Positions 2,126-28,019 of a stretch of 64,000 nt of DNA are shown one piece after another. Positions within the stretch are counted from its first letter, which is position 1. Every line of letters begins with the position of its first letter. Position numbers and translations under genes: made by a program. The notes under the pieces are model-generated. The model searched no databases. It saw only the letters and a list, made by a program, of their open reading frames with translations, and had not been told where the DNA came from. The stretch comes from Rhodospirillum centenum SW (GTDB taxonomy: Bacteria; Pseudomonadota; Alphaproteobacteria; Azospirillales; Azospirillaceae), in NCBI RefSeq assembly GCF_000016185.1, contig NC_011420.2:2562501-2626500 (forward strand), written 5' to 3'.

Positions 2126-3856
2126 TTACTCCTCGCCGACCTGCTGCTTGCGCTTGAGCGCCGCACCCAGGATGTCGCCCAGCGAGGCGCCGCTGTCGGA
2201 CGAGCCGAACTCCTGCATCGCCTGCTTCTCCTCCTCGACCTCCTTGGCCTTGATGGAGAGGGTGATCTTGCGGCTGCCGCGGTCGATCTGGGTGACCTTG
2301 GCATCGACCTTCTCGCCGATGGCGAAGCGGTCGGGCCGCTGCTCGGAGCGGTCGCGGGACAGGTCGGACTTGCGGATGAAGCCGGTGAAGCCTTCGCCCA
2401 CCTCGACCTCGATGCCGCCCTCGGTGACCTGGGTGACCGTGCAGGTCACCACGTCGCCCTTCTTGACGCCGGCGACGGCGGTCTCGAACGGATCGCCCGC
2501 GAGCTGCTTGATGCCCAGGGAGATGCGCTCCTTCTCGACGTCAACGTCGAGAACCTTGACCTTGACCTGATCGCCCTTCTTGTAGGTCTGGATGGCCTGC
2601 TCGCCCGGGGTGTTCCAGTCCAGGTCGGACAGGTGGACCATGCCGTCGATGTCGCCGGGCAGGCCCACGAACAGGCCGAACTCGGTGATGTTCTTGACCT
2701 CGCCTTCCAGCTCGGTGCCGCCGGGGAACTTCTCGACGAAGGACTCCCACGGGTTCTGCATCGTCTGCTTCAGGCCGAGGCTGATGCGGCGCTTCACCGG
2801 ATCGACGTCCAGGACCATCACCTCGACCTCCTGGGAGGTGGAGACGATCTTGCCCGGGTGGACGTTCTTCTTGGTCCAGCTCATCTCGGAGACGTGGACC
2901 AGACCCTCGATGCCCGGCTCCAGCTCCACGAAGGCGCCGTAGTCGGTGATGTTGGTGACGCGGCCCTTGAACTTGGCCTGGACCGGGTACTTGGCTTCCA
3001 CGCCCTCCCACGGATCGGCCTCGAGCTGCTTCATGCCGAGGCTGATGCGCTGGGTCTCCGGGTTGAAGCGGATGACCTGGACCGTGACGGTCTGGCCGAT
3101 CTGCAGCGCCTCGGACGGGTGGTTGATGCGGCGCCACGCGATGTCGGTGACATGCAGCAGGCCGTCAACGCCGCCCAGATCGACGAACGCACCGTAGTCG
3201 GTGATGTTCTTGACGACGCCCTGCAGGACCTGGCCTTCCTTGAGGTTGGCGACCAGCTCGCTGCGCGCCTCGGCCCGGCTCTCTTCCAGCACGGCGCGGC
3301 GGGAGACGACGATGTTGCCGCGGCTGCGGTCCATCTTGAGGATCTGGAAGGGCTGCGGCGTGCCCAGCAGCGGGCTGATGTCGCGCACCGGCCGGATGTC
3401 GACCTGGCTGCCCGGCAGGAACGCCACGGCGCCGTTGAGATCGACGGTGAAGCCACCCTTCACGCGGCCGAAGATCACGCCCGTCACGCGGGCCTGGTCG
3501 TTGAACGACTTCTCCAGCAGGGTCCAGGCTTCTTCGCGCTTCGCCTTCTCGCGGGACAGCACGGCCTCGCCGTTCTTGTCCTCCATGCGCTCCAGGTACA
3601 CCTCGACGGTGTCGCCCGCCTTCAGTTCGACCGGCTGGCCGGGAACCGCGAACTCCTTGAGCGCGACGCGGCCTTCGGACTTCAGGCCGACGTCGATCAG
3701 AACCATGTCGTTGTCGATCGAGAGGATGCGCCCCTTGACGACGGTGCCTTCCAGGCTGTCGGCGGTGCCGAAGGACTCTTCGAGAAGAGCGGCGAAGCTC
3801 TCCTTGCCGGCGGCGGCGCCGGCGGCCGGGCTGGACTTGGCGGAAACCTGGGCCAT
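2126..3856 (-). CDS. rpsA: 30S ribosomal protein S1
   Basis: The product has 576 residues and holds six S1 RNA-binding repeats, the full length for Gram-negative S1. It recruits mRNA to the 30S subunit. The repeats begin near residue 33 (GRILSIDND) and recur with the patterns DYGAFVDLGG and DYGAFVELEPG; the last lies near 480-560. The start MAQVSAKSS was chosen because a perfect AAGGAG stands about 7 bases upstream; an in-frame extension of 33 codons has no such site. It lies downstream of cmk on the same strand with a 281-base leader, long enough for the translational self-control known for S1 in E. coli, though no regulatory structure was recognised. Confidence 0.98.
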   Translation of the reverse strand: MAQVSAKSSPAAGAAAGKESFAALLEESFGTADSLEGTVVKGRILSIDNDMVLIDVGLKSEGRVALKEFAVPGQPVELKAGDTVEVYLERMEDKNGEAVLSREKAKREEAWTLLEKSFNDQARVTGVIFGRVKGGFTVDLNGAVAFLPGSQVDIRPVRDISPLLGTPQPFQILKMDRSRGNIVVSRRAVLEESRAEARSELVANLKEGQVLQGVVKNITDYGAFVDLGGVDGLLHVTDIAWRRINHPSEALQIGQTVTVQVIRFNPETQRISLGMKQLEADPWEGVEAKYPVQAKFKGRVTNITDYGAFVELEPGIEGLVHVSEMSWTKKNVHPGKIVSTSQEVEVMVLDVDPVKRRISLGLKQTMQNPWESFVEKFPGGTELEGEVKNITEFGLFVGLPGDIDGMVHLSDLDWNTPGEQAIQTYKKGDQVKVKVLDVDVEKERISLGIKQLAGDPFETAVAGVKKGDVVTCTVTQVTEGGIEVEVGEGFTGFIRKSDLSRDRSEQRPDRFAIGEKVDAKVTQIDRGSRKITLSIKAKEVEEEKQAMQEFGSSDSGASLGDILGAALKRKQQVGEE

Positions 3857-4137: not shown

Positions 4138-4836
4138 TCAGCGTCCGTTGAACGCCGGCTTCGCGCGGACGAAGGTCATGGCTGCGTCGAAGGCCTGGTC
4201 GGCATCCAACGAGGACGTGTCAAGCAAATACGCGTCGGCAGCCGGCTTCAGCGGGGCCACCGCCCGCTGGCTGTCACGCGCGTCACGATCCTTCATGTCC
4301 TTCAGGACGTCGGCGTATATAGCGACAGCGCCCCGCCCCTGCAACTCCTTGAGTCGGCGCTCGGCCCTTACTTCCACCGTAGCGGTGACATAGAGCTTCG
4401 CTTGCGCCCCGGGGCAGACCACGGTGCCGATGTCGCGGCCGTCCAGAACGGCACCGCGGGCCCTTGTTCCGCCGGCCAGCGCGGGCGGCCGCGCGGCGAA
4501 ATCGCGCTGGAAATCCAGCAGCGCCTGGCGCACCGCCGGCACGACCGAGACCAGCGACGCCGCCTGCGCCGTCGCCTCCGTCCGCAGCTCCGGATCGGCC
4601 ATCAGCCCGGCGATGTCGCCCGGCGTCAGCGCCGCCGCGGCCCGGGCCGCAAGCCCGGCATCGGCCGGGTCCTGCCCGGCGCGGCGCAGGGTCAGCCCGA
4701 CGGCGCGGTAGAGACCGCCGGTGTCGAGATGCGCGAAGCCCAGGGCGGCGGCGAGACGACGGGCAAGCGTGCCCTTGCCGCTGGCGGCGGGACCGTCGAT
4801 GGCGATGACGAGGGGGGCGCTGGGAGGCGGGGTCAA
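4138..4836 (-). CDS. cmk: Cytidylate kinase
   Basis: This 232-residue kinase phosphorylates CMP and dCMP with ATP in the cytoplasm. The P-loop GPAASGKGT is at 15-23, followed by the CMP-site sequence LDTGGLYRA and, later, LDGRDIGTVV with the substrate-binding DGRD. Length is typical of bacterial Cmk. In this lineage cmk normally lies directly after aroA; here a toxin-antitoxin pair and a Uma2 gene are in between, with cmk beginning 70 bases past the toxin stop. rpsA follows. The assignment rests on the complete motif set. Confidence 0.97.
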   Translation of the reverse strand: MTPPPSAPLVIAIDGPAASGKGTLARRLAAALGFAHLDTGGLYRAVGLTLRRAGQDPADAGLAARAAAALTPGDIAGLMADPELRTEATAQAASLVSVVPAVRQALLDFQRDFAARPPALAGGTRARGAVLDGRDIGTVVCPGAQAKLYVTATVEVRAERRLKELQGRGAVAIYADVLKDMKDRDARDSQRAVAPLKPAADAYLLDTSSLDADQAFDAAMTFVRAKPAFNGR

Positions 4837-4906
4837 AGCGGTAACCCGAAAGCAGTGGTCGTGAGGGCGCGGTCGGGAGGCACCATTCCCCCCCTGCGGC
4901 AGCGCG

Positions 4907-24098: not shown

Positions 24099-25223
24099 TC
24101 ACGCCTCCTCCCGCTCGGCCTCCTCGTCCTCGCCGACGGGGCGCGGGCCGGAGCGCCGCTCCAGCAGCTCGTACTTGCGCAGATAGCCGCGGAACTGGTG
24201 GTAGTTCAGCCCCAGGTCGGCGGCGGCGCGCTTCTGGTGGAACTGGTTGCGCTCCAGCGCCGTGCGCAGCAGCGCCTTTTCGAAATCCGCCACCTTGCCC
24301 AGGAAGTCGCAGGCCCCGCCGTCCGCGGGCCAGAGCCGCTCCACCCCGTCGCCCGGAGTCGGAGGCTGGGCGACGGTGACGGGAGTCGCGCCCGGGGGTG
24401 TCGCCGGGGCCGTGTCGTAGATCGCCATCTGCGTCGGCCGCCAGGGCGACCTGAAGGGGTCGAAGACGATCTCCTCGATCGCCCGGTCGCTCTCCGGCGC
24501 CCGGTAGACGGCGCGCTCCACCACGTTCTTCAGCTCGCGCACGTTGCCCGGCCAGGGATAGGCCAGCAGGCGCTGCTGCGCATGGGGCGCGAATCCGGGG
24601 AAGAAGGGCTTGCCCAGTTCCTTCACCATGGCGACGGCGAAGTGTTCGGCCAGGATCGGGATGTCCTCCGGCCGGGCGCGCAGCGGCGGGATGGTCAGCA
24701 CGTCGAAGCAGAGCCGGTCCAGCAGGTCGGCGCGGAACTTCCCCTCGTCCGCCAGCCGGGGCAGGTCGGCGTTCGTCGCCCCCACCACCCGCACGTCCAC
24801 CGAGAGGGTCTGGGTGCCGCCGACCCGCTCGAACTCCCCGTACTCGATGATGCGCAGGATCTTCTCCTGCACCCGCAGGCTGGCGGTGGCGATCTCGTCC
24901 AGGAACAGGGTGCCACCGTCGGCCAGCTCGAAGCGGCCGACATGACGCTTCTGCGCGCCGGTGAAGGCGCCGGCCTCATGGCCGAACAGCTCCGTCTCCA
25001 GCAGCGTCTCCGACAGGGCCGCGCAGTTCAGCTTGACGAACGGCCGGTCCCACCGCGGCGACAGATAGTGCAGGCGGGCGGCCACCAGCTCCTTGCCGGT
25101 GCCGCGCTCCCCGATCACCAGGGTCGGACGGTTCAGGGCTGCGGCCTGCGAGACATGCTCCATCAGCGCCGTGAAGGCGGGGGCCTGGCCGATCAGCGAC
25201 GGCGGGCTGGCGGCGGCGGGCAT
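24099..25223 (-). CDS. pspF: PspF-type sigma-54-dependent activator
   Basis: The 374-residue enhancer-binding protein has an AAA+ domain from the N-terminus (Walker A GERGTGKE 38-45, GAFTGA loop 85-90, Walker B GGTLFLDE 103-110) and a C-terminal Fis-type helix-turn-helix (about 325-350, KRAAADLGLNYHQFRGYLRK). It has no receiver or sensory domain, as in PspF, whose activity is held down by direct binding of PspA. A Pro/Thr-rich linker (about 265-300) sits between domains. It is divergent from the psp operon, across a sigma-54 promoter. Confidence 0.94.
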   Translation of the reverse strand: MPAAASPPSLIGQAPAFTALMEHVSQAAALNRPTLVIGERGTGKELVAARLHYLSPRWDRPFVKLNCAALSETLLETELFGHEAGAFTGAQKRHVGRFELADGGTLFLDEIATASLRVQEKILRIIEYGEFERVGGTQTLSVDVRVVGATNADLPRLADEGKFRADLLDRLCFDVLTIPPLRARPEDIPILAEHFAVAMVKELGKPFFPGFAPHAQQRLLAYPWPGNVRELKNVVERAVYRAPESDRAIEEIVFDPFRSPWRPTQMAIYDTAPATPPGATPVTVAQPPTPGDGVERLWPADGGACDFLGKVADFEKALLRTALERNQFHQKRAAADLGLNYHQFRGYLRKYELLERRSGPRPVGEDEEAEREEA

Positions 25224-25446
25224 GTGTCCCCCCTGCGTCTGGGGTCCCGGGCCGGGTGCGCCGGGGCCGTTTCGGGCGGTCGCCCCCGGCTTCCCCGAAG
25301 GCGGAGAAGCGGGATTGGTGTGATCGGCGACCGAGTGGCGAGAACCGCCAAGGAATGGTCCGGATGCTAAACCCGGCCACTGGGGTGGTCAAGACCGATC
25401 GCGGTATCCGCCTTGATTTCCAAGGATTTCCGGCGGACAGGGACGG

Positions 25447-25463
25447 TTGGCACGGTGCTTGCT
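25447..25463 (+). promoter_or_regulatory. Sigma-54 promoter of the psp operon
   Basis: TTGGCACGGTGCTTGCT has GG at 25449-25450 and GC at 25461-25462, exactly ten bases between, matching the TGGCAC-N5-TTGCW consensus. It lies 53 bases before the first psp reading frame and opposite pspF, so PspF bound upstream (about 25230-25420) should activate it. Confidence 0.88.
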
Positions 25464-25515
25464 GATATGTCCCCGACCGGAAGCAGACCTTCTCTCACGA
25501 AGGGGGACAGTGACG

Positions 25516-25734
25516 ATGACAGACCAGACCTTCCAAACCGGACACCTCCCACGGACGGAGACGTTCGGTCGGGAAATCCGGTGCGAACGCGCCCCGGGGA
25601 CGGGCTTCTTCGCCCGCCGGACCGACGGCGTGCTGCGGACCCTCTACGAGGATTTCCGCGCCGTACCGGCGGAGGCCTGGATCATCCTTGCGGTCGCCAC
25701 CGTGATGAGCAACCTTTTCATCGCCCTTGCCTGA
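25516..25734 (+). CDS. Small single-pass membrane protein, first gene of the psp operon
   Basis: The 72-residue product has a polar N-terminal half (MTDQTFQTGHLPRTETFG) and one hydrophobic segment at the extreme C-terminus (WIILAVATVMSNLFIALA). AGGGGGA stands about 9 bases before the ATG. It is the first frame after the sigma-54 promoter and ends 14 bases before pspA. I do not recognise a family. Place and topology suggest a membrane accessory of the phage-shock response, which is inferred. Confidence 0.7.
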   Translation: MTDQTFQTGHLPRTETFGREIRCERAPGTGFFARRTDGVLRTLYEDFRAVPAEAWIILAVATVMSNLFIALA

Positions 25735-25748
25735 AGGAGACCCGTGAC

Positions 25749-26423
25749 ATGGGCATCTTTTCCCGTCTCGGCGACATCGTGAATTCGAACATCAACTCCA
25801 TCCTGGATCGCGCCGAAGATCCGGAGAAGCTGATCCGCCTGATCATTCAGGAGATGGAGGACACCCTCGTCGAGGTCCGGTCCTCCGCCGTGAAGACCGT
25901 CGCGGAGAAGAAGGAACTGGAGCGCAAGCTGGCCGACCTGCGGCGCGAGTCGGAGGACTGGCAGCGCAAGGCCGAGTTCGCGCTGAGCAAGGACCGTGAC
26001 GATCTGGCCAAGGGGGCCCTGGTCGCCAAGGCCAAGCTGGCCGAGGCCGCCGAGTCCATGGCGACGGAGCTGGCCCGGCTGGACGAGGCCCTGTCCAAGA
26101 CCAACGAGGACATCGGGCAGCTCCAGCAGAAGCTGGCCGACGCCAAGGCCCGCGAGAAGGCCCTGGTGGCCCGCCACAAGACGGCGACGAACCAGCTCAA
26201 GGTCCGCACCCAGCTCTATGACAACCGCATCACCGACGCCTTCACCCGCTTCGAGCAGGTCGAGCGCAATCTCGACGTGCTGGAGGGCAAGGCCGAGGTG
26301 ATGGCGATGGGCCAGAAGAAGAGCCTGGCGGACGAGATCGCGGAACTCGAAGCCGACTCCAAGGTCGAGTCGGAGCTGCAGGCGCTGAAGGCCAGGCTGG
26401 CGGCGAAGTCTCAACCGGAGTAA
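25749..26423 (+). CDS. pspA: Phage shock protein A
   Basis: The 224-residue protein starts with MGIFSRLGDIVNSNINSIL, the amphipathic membrane-binding helix of the PspA/IM30 (ESCRT-III-like) family, followed by long coiled-coil helices to residue 220. PspA coats damaged inner membrane and, when unstressed, blocks PspF. Length equals E. coli PspA (222). The ATG at 25749 has GGAG about 11 bases upstream. Second gene of the operon; pspB follows 36 bases later. Confidence 0.97.
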   Translation: MGIFSRLGDIVNSNINSILDRAEDPEKLIRLIIQEMEDTLVEVRSSAVKTVAEKKELERKLADLRRESEDWQRKAEFALSKDRDDLAKGALVAKAKLAEAAESMATELARLDEALSKTNEDIGQLQQKLADAKAREKALVARHKTATNQLKVRTQLYDNRITDAFTRFEQVERNLDVLEGKAEVMAMGQKKSLADEIAELEADSKVESELQALKARLAAKSQPE

Positions 26424-26459
26424 GTGGCGTGGCGGGTTCGACCCAAGAGGGGGCTCAAG

Positions 26460-26690
26460 ATGCCTGAAGGCGCATTTGTCGTGGCGGTGGCGTTCCTGAC
26501 CATCGTCGCCCCGATCTGGATCATCTTCCACTACGTCACCAAATGGCGCATCGCCAAGACGCTCTCGGCCGACGACGAGAAGATGCTGGCCGATCTCTGG
26601 CACAGCGCGGCGCAGATGGAGGACCGGATCCGGTCGCTGGAGAAGATCCTCGATGCCGAGGCACCGGGCTGGAGGGCCAAGGCACCATGA
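26460..26690 (+). CDS. pspB: Phage shock protein B
   Basis: This 76-residue membrane protein has one N-terminal helix (FVVAVAFLTIVAPIWIIFHYV) and a cytoplasmic coiled coil (ADLWHSAAQMEDRIRSLEKIL) ending in DAEAPGWRAK, the PspB layout. PspB and PspC sense envelope stress and free PspF from PspA. The ATG at 26460 has GAGGGGG about 7 bases upstream; a GTG 12 codons before would begin at the pspA stop. The stop overlaps pspC by ATGA. A close relative of its C-terminal motif recurs at 27798-28019. Confidence 0.9.
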   Translation: MPEGAFVVAVAFLTIVAPIWIIFHYVTKWRIAKTLSADDEKMLADLWHSAAQMEDRIRSLEKILDAEAPGWRAKAP

Positions 26691-27421
26691 GCGATCCTTA
26701 TGACAGGGGTGGCGGCCCGCCGCCCTTCCGCAAGCACCGCTACAGCAGCATGCGCAGCCGTGGCGGCCGCCCGGGGTTCGACTGGGAGCGCGATCTCCTG
26801 GGCAAGGACCCCGGCCAGAGCTGGAGCGAGTATCTCGGTCTGGGCGGCATCGGGATGTCCCGGGGGGGCAAGGACCCGTGGACGGACCGGGGAATGGACC
26901 GCGGGACGGGCCGGGGGACGGCCAGGGGGACGGGACAGGGTCCCGCCCCCGGCCGGGACGCCTACGGCGGCTACGACACGGACCACGACCCGACCAGGGA
27001 GGCGTCTTCGATGCCACAGATGGACCCGATGTTCCGGTCGCCCAACCCGCACCGGCTCTACCGCAACACCCAGGACGGCAAGCTGGCCGGCGTCTGCGCC
27101 GGGATCGCCGACTACATCAATGTCGATGCCTGGATCGTCCGGCTGGGGCTGCTGCTGGGCCTGCCCTTCTTCTTCTTCGCGATCGTGGCCGGCTATGTCG
27201 TGCTCTGGATCGTGCTGAAGGAGCGGCCCTCCCACCTCTACGAAAGCCAGGAGGAGGAGCGGTTCTGGCGGTCGGTCACGACCCGGCCCGACCAGACCCT
27301 GGCGGGCCTGAAGACCAAGTTCCGCGAGCTGGACCGGCAGATCGGCGGCATGGAGAGCTACGTCGCCTCCCGCGAGTACGACCTGCACCGCCAGTTCCGG
27401 GACCTTGAAAAGAAGAAGTGA
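26687..27421 (+). CDS. pspC: Phage shock protein C with long N-terminal extension
   Basis: This 244-residue protein has a PspC domain at about 122-182 (PHRLYRNTQDGKLAGVCAGI, then a membrane helix FFFFAIVAGYVVLWIVL). Standard PspC has about 120 residues, so the first 115 are extra: a polar, Gly/Arg-rich region with repeats such as RGMDRGTGRGTARGTGQG. A helical tail (200-244, LDRQIGGMESYVASREYDL) resembles the C-terminal part of the next gene product. It is translationally coupled to pspB. The stress-sensing role is from the family; the roles of the extensions are unknown. Confidence 0.88.
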   Translation: MSDPYDRGGGPPPFRKHRYSSMRSRGGRPGFDWERDLLGKDPGQSWSEYLGLGGIGMSRGGKDPWTDRGMDRGTGRGTARGTGQGPAPGRDAYGGYDTDHDPTREASSMPQMDPMFRSPNPHRLYRNTQDGKLAGVCAGIADYINVDAWIVRLGLLLGLPFFFFAIVAGYVVLWIVLKERPSHLYESQEEERFWRSVTTRPDQTLAGLKTKFRELDRQIGGMESYVASREYDLHRQFRDLEKKK

Positions 27422-27450
27422 CGCGGGTCCTGCCCGCGGATGGAGGGGCC

Positions 27451-27693
27451 ATGACCACCGGACATCTGATCGCGATCGTCGCCCTGCTGATCCCCATCGT
27501 GAGCATCGTCACGTCACACATGCGGCGCTGGCAGAAACTGGAGATCAAGGCGGCCCAGCGCGAGGTCGAGCTGCGCCGCCGCTTCCGGGTGTTCGACGAG
27601 CTGGAGCGCCGCGTGGCCGACATGGAACGCCACGTCACCAGCAAGGAGTACCAGCTCGACCGCGAGATCGGCCGGCTGGCCGGGCGCCCCTGA
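27451..27693 (+). CDS. PspB-like small membrane protein (first extra copy)
   Basis: The 80-residue product has an N-terminal membrane helix (LIAIVALLIPIVSIVTSHM) and a charged coiled coil with FDELERRVADMERHV then TSKEYQLDREIGRL. The tail aligns with the PspC tail (FRELDRQIGGMESYV, ASREYDLHRQFRDL), sharing about 13 of 29 positions. GGAGGGG precedes the ATG. It follows pspC by 29 bases. By layout it is PspB-like; function inferred from the operon. Confidence 0.75.
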   Translation: MTTGHLIAIVALLIPIVSIVTSHMRRWQKLEIKAAQREVELRRRFRVFDELERRVADMERHVTSKEYQLDREIGRLAGRP

Positions 27694-27736
27694 TCCGGGA
27701 GGCCCCGATCCGGGAGGCCCTGAGCCGGGCGGTCCC
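27692..27736. repeat. Three 15-base tandem units after the first PspB-like gene
   Basis: GATCCGGGAGGCCCC, GATCCGGGAGGCCCT and the diverged GAGCCGGGCGGTCCC follow one another, beginning at the stop codon of the preceding gene and filling half the gap to the next one. Confidence 0.7.
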
Positions 27737-27797
27737 GCGCCGGGCGCCCCGATCCTCCTTCCCCACACCCCCGACCTGATGCCTGACGGAGTCCGAC

Positions 27798-28019
27798 ATG
27801 TTGAGCGGTGGTCAACTCGTTGCGCTGTTCGCCCTGGCGATCCCCATCGTCGCCATCGTCATGAACCACATGACCGGCTGGCGGAAGGCGAAGGCCCAGG
27901 GCCTGTCCGAAGGGGCGGCGGCCGAGCTTGCGGCCCGCGCCGCCGGCCTGGAGGACCGCGTCGGACAGCTTGAACGCATCCTGGACGCGGAAAGCCCCGG
28001 CTGGCGGGCCCGGCACTGA
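27798..28019 (+). CDS. PspB-like small membrane protein (second extra copy)
   Basis: The 73-residue product has one membrane helix (LVALFALAIPIVAIVMNHM) and a coiled coil ending in LEDRVGQLERILDAESPGW, almost the same ending as PspB (MEDRIRSLEKILDAEAPGW). It is therefore a paralogue of pspB and the last gene of the operon, 104 bases after the previous copy. No terminator of note was seen before the convergent VOC gene. Confidence 0.78.
   Translation: MLSGGQLVALFALAIPIVAIVMNHMTGWRKAKAQGLSEGAAAELAARAAGLEDRVGQLERILDAESPGWRARH

Follow-up and report, generated by a model that had tools for sequence, protein, structure and literature searches.

A 64,000-base stretch of the single-contig genome of Rhodospirillum centenum SW (4,355,543 bases), referred to below as the window (G000:C1:2562501-2626500), carries an enlarged phage-shock protein (Psp) operon in which pspA, pspB and pspC are accompanied by a small first gene, s1, and by two small last genes, s5 and s6. 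Sequence comparison identifies s5 as a membrane helix joined to a PspC tail, with no PspC domain, and s6 as a second PspB. The explanation that we favour, at a probability of roughly 0.48, is that a PspB-PspC pair was partly duplicated and taken apart, that s5 and s6 form a sensor-less pair which would sustain the activity of PspF, and that s1 would be coupled to pspA. The operon is a conserved variant of the Psp system, carried by one branch of soil and water bacteria.

Identity of the extra genes and layout of the operon

The locus had been described from its letters and open reading frames alone (the sequence-only reading) as a perfect sigma-54 promoter followed by a 72-residue protein, PspA, PspB, PspC and two small frames; its coordinates, order and frames hold. 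An enlarged Psp operon with conserved extra genes, as claimed there, was recovered in 19 of the 54 loci examined in the family Azospirillaceae (the window and the primary psp loci of 53 other genomes); these 19 come from five genus codes, and in them the six genes are open and follow the same order, s1-pspA-pspB-pspC-s5-s6. The same description counted three PspB-type proteins, which is correct for the first PspB and for s6 (73 residues) and wrong for s5 (80 residues), a PspC tail.

The s6 protein matched PF06667 with 38.9 bits, above the cut-off of 25.6, and failed the equivalog cut-off of TIGR02976 (37.2 vs 51.7 bits); on these scores it is a PspB paralogue and not an equivalog. All 16 s6 homologues matched PspB (E 0.01), and at the same threshold none of the 16 s5 homologues matched any Pfam family, PF06667 included. 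The PspC model TIGR02978 was matched by 16/16 s5 homologues; further matches were to the PspB model in one of them (E 0.0011) and to the PspA model in two (E 0.0074 or weaker). The s5 protein of the window aligned to positions 69-120 of TIGR02978, which represent the C-terminal tail (E 3.9e-7), and stayed below the whole-protein cut-off (30 vs 104 bits). The PspC domain PF04024 gave no match in s5, and the two PF04024 matches of the genome lie elsewhere. Furthermore, the family loci that lack the extra genes supplied 35 PspB and 34 PspC tails for discriminating profiles. In 19/19 enlarged loci s5 fitted the PspC-tail profile better than the PspB profile (median 39.4 vs 7.5 bits), while s6 fitted the PspB profile better than the PspC tail, again in 19/19 (54.9 vs 5.1 bits). 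The candidate identity of s5 as a third PspB was rejected on the Pfam, TIGR02978 and tail-profile results. The AlphaFold model of s5 has a long helix over residues 2-62 and a short one over residues 65-76, with a mean predicted local distance difference test (pLDDT) score of 83. PspB-type sensors with different thresholds, as had been suggested, are possible; since s5 and s6 lack a PspC domain, "extra output module" is the more apt description than "extra sensor".

In their membrane halves, s5 and s6 resemble each other more within a genome than between genomes (likeness 0.618 vs 0.473; permutation p 1.5e-4, 10 lineages); for the tails there is no such difference (0.169 vs 0.161, p 0.30). The best match of the s5 helix was its own s6 in 4/10 lineages; in four lineages the own s6 ranked second and in two fourth. 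In one relative (L026), s5 and s6 both begin with an odd MQE-ILPI-VFSIPI, unlike the rest of the genus. Third bases of s5 and s6 agreed at 55 of 83 four-fold sites, compared with 44.7 expected from codon use (p 0.015). The likeness of the membrane halves may reflect a co-adapted pair or gene conversion.

The activator, the sigma-54 promoter, PspA, PspB and PspC could each be assigned by a curated cut-off or a site match (Table 1), and on these assignments the locus is a real and intact PspF/sigma-54-type Psp operon, for which stress induction through PspF would be expected. The pspF gene is divergent from the operon in 19/19 enlarged loci, and 62-69 bases separate the -24/-12 match from s1 in all of them. 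The genome holds 11 perfect sigma-54 sites, compared with 3 for a reversed control pattern. In pspC, PF04024 was found at residues 123-179 and TIGR02978 at residues 122-240 (121.4 bits, cut-off 104), with 122 residues preceding the PF04024 match as a long N-terminal extension. This extension (window 26687-27050) is rich in Gly, Arg and Asp and of low complexity. Models of PspD, PspE and PspG found no match among the seven proteins scanned. Between the last s5 codon and the s6 start (window 27691-27797) there are 107 bases, compared with 12-66 in 18 relatives, and this gap in the window holds near-repeats of GATCCGGGAGGCCC.

Table 1. Features of the enlarged psp operon and of the second psp locus (window positions, except where the contig is given)
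Feature	Position	Strand	Description
pspF	24099..25223	-	sigma-54 enhancer-binding activator, 374 residues; TIGR02974 510.2 bits (cut-off 443.55)
dyad TGGCGA-N3-CCGCCA	25336..25350	.	candidate PspF enhancer site, 112 bases upstream of the -24 element; 11/12 half-site bases
sigma-54 promoter, -24/-12	25448..25462	+	perfect site, TGGCACGGTGCTTGC
s1	25516..25734	+	72 residues; C-terminal membrane helix runs to the last residue
s1 end/pspA ribosome-site block	25678..25739	+	last 18 codons and stop, fused to TGAAGGAG
pspA	25749..26423	+	TIGR02977 290.2 bits (cut-off 242.95)
pspB, first copy	26460..26690	+	76 residues; PF06667 102.3 bits (cut-off 25.6); TIGR02976 76.6 bits (cut-off 51.7)
pspC	26687..27421	+	244 residues; core and tail complete; start overlaps pspB stop
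s5	27451..27693	+	80 residues; membrane helix and free-standing PspC tail, as classified by profiles
s6	27798..28019	+	73 residues; second PspB, as classified by profiles
second psp locus	G000:C1:3777297-3778612 (in L061)		sigma-54 site, pspA2, tail-less pspC2

Distribution, selection and the second psp locus

PspA (E up to 1e-30) was found in 81 of the 82 genomes of the order, all of one family code. The 35 family loci of standard type gave no separate match for s1 or s5 and lack an s6 downstream of pspC, and a profile recheck (E 0.01) revealed a single PspB in all of them except L020. In that locus (genus code g5; 2702-3279, reversed coordinates) a second, different PspB lies between pspA and pspB. 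In another, L024 (g10; 4681-4855, reversed coordinates), a partial copy of the PspC tail, without a membrane helix, lies downstream. A whole-genome profile search of the 82 family genomes found s1 in 19 and full-length s5 in 21, and all 21 genomes with s5 fall in genus codes g1, g6, g7, g11 and g12. In two of these, G073 and G075, s5 lies near a contig start and the primary PspA match is missing; their psp loci are read as broken by the assembly.

Among 385 genomes of the class, s1 was matched in 3 genomes, all of its own family; a further match, at E 0.004, lies within a frame of 1531 residues and is taken as chance. The s6 profile gave more than one match only in those 3 genomes. Full-length-like s5 matches beyond the family were few among the class genomes, and a plasmid collection gave no s5 match. 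A pattern-based scan of one genome per species (84,980 species) returned 17 loci, 15 of them in Oleisolibacter, Niveispirillum, Aerophototrophica, Nitrospirillum, two strains named Azospirillum sp., Alpha proteobacterium AAP38 and a Rhodospirillaceae metagenome-assembled genome; the remaining two, in Clostridia (54-57% over 28 residues), are taken as chance. On the PspA tree, the 19 enlarged rows and the 7 second-locus rows are set apart from the 43 standard and outgroup rows by a branch with support 86/95. To explain the enlarged label, the best tree needs two changes and 18% of the bootstrap trees need one, which is compatible with a single origin of the enlarged operon without demonstrating it.

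Frames absent or broken in close relatives, or missing purifying selection, had been named beforehand as observations that would count against the extra genes. The extra genes passed this check: each of the 19 loci that carry them has open frames, and amino-acid change is lower than silent change in close pairs, with s5 weakly constrained in one of these, L025-L043. From the rest of the family they are absent. The ratios of amino-acid to silent change (pN/pS), pooled over 11 lineages, were 0.60 for s1, 0.71 for s5, 0.64 for s6, 0.30 for pspA, 0.25 for pspB and 0.47 for pspC, and are to be read as upper values because silent change is thought to be near saturation. In most of the eight close pairs, the amino-acid change of s5 and s6 was far below the silent change. 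For the pair L029-L031, pN and pS were 0.035 and 0.381 in s5, 0.018 and 0.445 in s6, and 0.007 and 0.064 in s1; the difference was weaker for L025-L043 (0.171 and 0.314, 0.094 and 0.323, and 0.047 and 0.077, respectively). Within s1, pN was 0.029 in the last 27 codons, which are constrained, and 0.428 in the N-terminal part, which is not. Chance open reading frames or decaying copies were ruled out by the synteny, the open frames in 19 loci and the low pN relative to pS.

The window genome encodes two PspA, two PspC domains and two PspB above the Pfam cut-off. A second PspA was present in 21/21 genomes of the same five genus codes and in 0/61 others, and it was the sole PspA found in G073 and G075. 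Seven of the 21 second loci were read. In 7/7 the next gene after pspA2 encodes a PspC whose match ends before the tail, and in 7/7 pspA2 is preceded by a sigma-54 site that is unique, on both strands, within the stretch. The dyad TGGCGA-N3-TCGCCA, at 10/12 or better within 200 bases upstream, was found in 17/19 first loci and 7/7 second loci; it stands 108-114 bases before the -24 element in 14/17 and 4/7 of them, respectively, and neither dyad mean was reached by Markov shuffles in 200 trials. The gap and half-sites of the dyad were derived from the same promoters, so the counts at the two loci are not independent of the motif. A fairer comparison is with the nine other perfect sigma-54 sites of the window genome, which score 7-9, against 11/12 at the two psp sites. 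Since the dyad marks only the two psp sites among the 11, both loci are probably PspF targets. The wording of a report that covers cysts of this organism is presumably that of the PspA orthologue group. Tag numbers in its Transcription section agree with the map positions of both pspA genes (PMC4340629), and on both grounds the two Psp loci are candidates that may be induced in cysts.

The s1 protein and its junction with pspA

No Pfam or NCBIfam family and no PDB match was found for s1, and only 1/14 of its homologues matched an NCBIfam model (E 0.35). AlphaFold predicted an unordered region up to residue 31 and helices at residues 32-48 and 52-71 (mean pLDDT 66). The total length varies from 56 to 72 residues across relatives; the end, DFRAVPxEAWIILAVATxxSNLFIALA, is invariant save for the x positions in 14/14 aligned proteins. 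The 29 invariant columns comprise 24 in the segment that starts at D46 and runs to the C-terminus, four at M1-T5 and one at L43. Judged from its sequence, s1 is a tail-anchored protein confined to one lineage.

The conservation of this end extends to its codons. The s1 stop merges with the pspA ribosome site as TGAAGGAG in 18/19 loci and as TGAGGAG in one. Codons whose amino acid is invariant across 11 lineages, Met and Trp excluded, were assessed for codon invariance; these lineages share ancestry, and the background counts are drawn from the same lineages. Among the last 18 s1 codons, 11/15 were codon-invariant, compared with 47/236 in pspA, pspB, pspC, s5 and s6 (Fisher p 2.8e-5), and the last 18 codons of those five genes gave 2/8, 1/8, 2/10, 0/3 and 1/10, respectively. 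Three Leu sites of s1 use CTT in 32/33 cases, compared with 36/705 Leu codons in neighbouring genes and 3/223 in six genes of the window. A 24-base piece of the block had exactly one match in 19/81 genomes, always at s1, and a search for second copies of the conserved block among the 81 genomes was negative.

It is quite conceivable, at somewhat less than even odds, that this codon conservation merely keeps the pspA ribosome site unstructured and that s1 is an ordinary small membrane protein. The natural s1-end sequence was less structured than its synonymous variants in 11/11 lineages and the pspA ribosome site was more open in 8/11, as this reading predicts; other A/T-rich Leu codons would serve equally well, yet CTT is all but fixed at the three sites and rare nearby. 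The fixed CTT is unexplained by low structure alone. A shared hairpin masking the pspA ribosome site was also considered and rejected, given discordant folds and synonymous shuffles that indicate less structure. The only scan match for an intrinsic terminator within the operon, which spans the pspA start, was likewise rejected, shuffles giving 1.4. An Rfam scan near the operon returned two matches, both under their gathering scores. A short CCC...GGG stem lies over the pspA start codon (window 25741-25753), where many aligned relatives have similar bases; it may be due to chance.

The s1 end suggests, from its sequence, translational coupling or leader-peptide control of pspA. A conserved C-terminal end immediately upstream of the gene under control is a mark of leader and arrest peptides. 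In s1 a conserved 27-residue end and a stop fused to the pspA ribosome site were found; many of these features would also be expected of a plain tail-anchored protein. An improbable and more far-reaching alternative to the favoured explanation is that s1 is a membrane-inserting leader peptide that tunes PspA translation, combined with a natural split PspC sensor whose co-regulated halves are separate genes. The invariant C-terminal helix of s1 would then still be inside the ribosome at termination, and the helix together with the fixed rare codons would sense membrane insertion of the nascent chain and set PspA translation; the PspC tail would act with PspB2 and the PspC core with PspA2, as separate co-regulated genes.

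Known Psp systems and a possible mechanism

The operon resembles the pspF-pspABC systems of E. coli and Yersinia in its divergent PspF, sigma-54 promoter, PspA, PspB and PspC, and has in addition s1, s5, s6 and the second pspA-pspC locus. The extra copies and the first protein had been proposed as undescribed components. This stands for s1, which has no Pfam or NCBIfam family; PspB duplicates within psp operons, as s6 is, have been published (example AOL22920.1; PMC11237479, mSystems 2024), so that s6 is not new in kind. The passages on duplicates in that paper mention no free PspC tail, no small gene before pspA and no split PspC. Its passages on fusions report that PspC may be fused to a divergent C-terminal PspB; the C-terminal part of PspC is viewed there as PspB-like, in keeping with the resemblance of s5 to both proteins, although the PspB part is fused in that case and s5 is a gene of its own with its own membrane helix. 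Many genomes with multiple PspC are also on record in the part of PMC9239133 (mSystems 2022) that concerns them. No account of a free PspC tail, of s1 or of a split PspC turned up in a literature search that excluded most subscription papers as well as the supplements and web app of PMC11237479.

Comparable free tails could be seen outside the family. In genomes of family code f13 (L072, L105, L106, L108-L112), which we take to be sphingomonads, pspC is followed by one to three short frames with a membrane segment and a PspC-tail-like part, as in s5; these arrays differ in having no s1 match and different tails, and the two proteins scanned were below the Pfam and NCBIfam cut-offs. Stand-alone genes for a membrane segment and a PspC-tail-like part occur in six loci of another class of the same phylum (L099-L104), whose hosts we infer to be gammaproteobacteria; no recognised pspA, pspB or pspC was found within the 8-kb stretch. 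Another split PspC is present in L073 (3700-5545, minus strand, reversed coordinates), where pspA and pspB are followed in turn by a tail-less PspC, a free tail and a full PspC. Six free-tail-like proteins were scanned; none reached a Pfam or NCBIfam cut-off, and the best NCBIfam match was PspC or PspB in 5/6. This wider set is not a survey: 54 of 398 genomes matched the s5 profile, mostly through ordinary PspC tails, and 14 loci were chosen from these.

According to the favoured explanation, the normal PspB-PspC pair would sense membrane damage, and s5 and s6, produced once the operon is on, would act as a second pair without a sensor. They would keep PspA at the membrane and off PspF, prolonging or amplifying the response and offering docking sites for PspA. 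The second locus would add the complementary fragment, a PspC core without its tail, next to the second PspA. The s1 gene would be translated first, and its final codons and stop would couple its translation to that of pspA.

The reading of s5 and s6 as a pair that sustains PspF activity is drawn from E. coli, in which overexpressed PspC40-119, or PspC69-119 with PspB, induces psp. In the passages of PMC3068692 on PspC fragments, strongly expressed PspC40-119 switches psp on in the absence of stress; PspC69-119 requires PspB both for this effect and for its contact with PspA; and PspC1-68, which has no tail, reduces the proton-motive force and fails to induce. PspC40-119 may be regarded as the engineered counterpart of s5 and PspC1-68 as that of PspC2, with s6 as the PspB of s5: a helix with the tail, or the tail alone, works with PspB there, as s5 would here. 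The E. coli fragments are engineered and overexpressed, while s5 occurs naturally as a gene and has a membrane helix similar to the one in s6. For Yersinia, PMC5596341 states that PspA is bound in the on state by the PspC C-terminal domain.

The same signalling tails could be put to the opposite use. The s5 and s6 proteins may be negative or buffering parts that compete with PspB and PspC for each other or for PspA, raising the threshold or ending the response; we regard this as unlikely. Both proteins have tails and no sensor domain, and the shared tails make mixed pairs (PspB-s5, PspC-s6) plausible. The title of a work cited in PMC5596341 states that contacts between the cytoplasmic domains of PspB and PspC silence the Yersinia response. 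The overexpressed E. coli tail with PspB and without the core, as described in the fragment passages of PMC3068692, induced psp and did not silence it. An option to which we give somewhat less credence still is that the extra genes, as paralogues, persist chiefly as membrane effectors, for PspA docking or for contact with secretins or lipids, with little regulatory influence. PspBC guard Yersinia against secretin-induced death, as a passage of PMC9239133 has it, and the stand-alone tails of L099-L104, set apart from recognised psp genes, fit a role outside psp control; s5 and s6, in contrast, retain both their place in a PspF-type operon in 19/19 enlarged loci and their signalling tails.

Several observations weigh against the sensor-less pair and the coupling of s1. 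Near-basal fragments failed in pIV induction, where only full-length PspC worked, and a periplasmic topology of the PspC tail is discussed in the same paper (PMC3068692). The effect of the fragments may require overexpression, and our confidence was lowered from 0.50 to 0.48 on account of the basal-level result in PMC3068692. Given the agreement at four-fold sites, gene conversion can explain why s5 and s6 are alike in their membrane halves, and across genera the pN/pS of s5 (0.71) and s6 (0.64) exceeds that of pspA (0.30) and pspB (0.25). The dyad is weaker in standard loci, where it reached at least 10/12 in 7/25 with a recognised promoter, yet this is above shuffles; 10 further standard loci had no recognised promoter. 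What links s5 to the tail-less PspC2 is that they co-occur in perhaps one clade, and this could be a single historical event. At the s1-pspA junction no shared RNA fold was found, single-sequence folds from 12 lineages disagreeing with one another.

The release of PspF from PspA by PspB and PspC has so far been argued from engineered fragments. A native PspC tail without its core and a core without its tail, in five genus codes, permit the division of labour within PspC to be tested. The s1 end, constrained both as a peptide and in its codons, is a candidate for an extra layer of PspA control not met in the literature search and, if the leader reading were true, s1 would bring sensing at the level of translation to a system known for transcriptional control. 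The enlarged operon could thereby reveal how bacteria retune their membrane-stress alarm.

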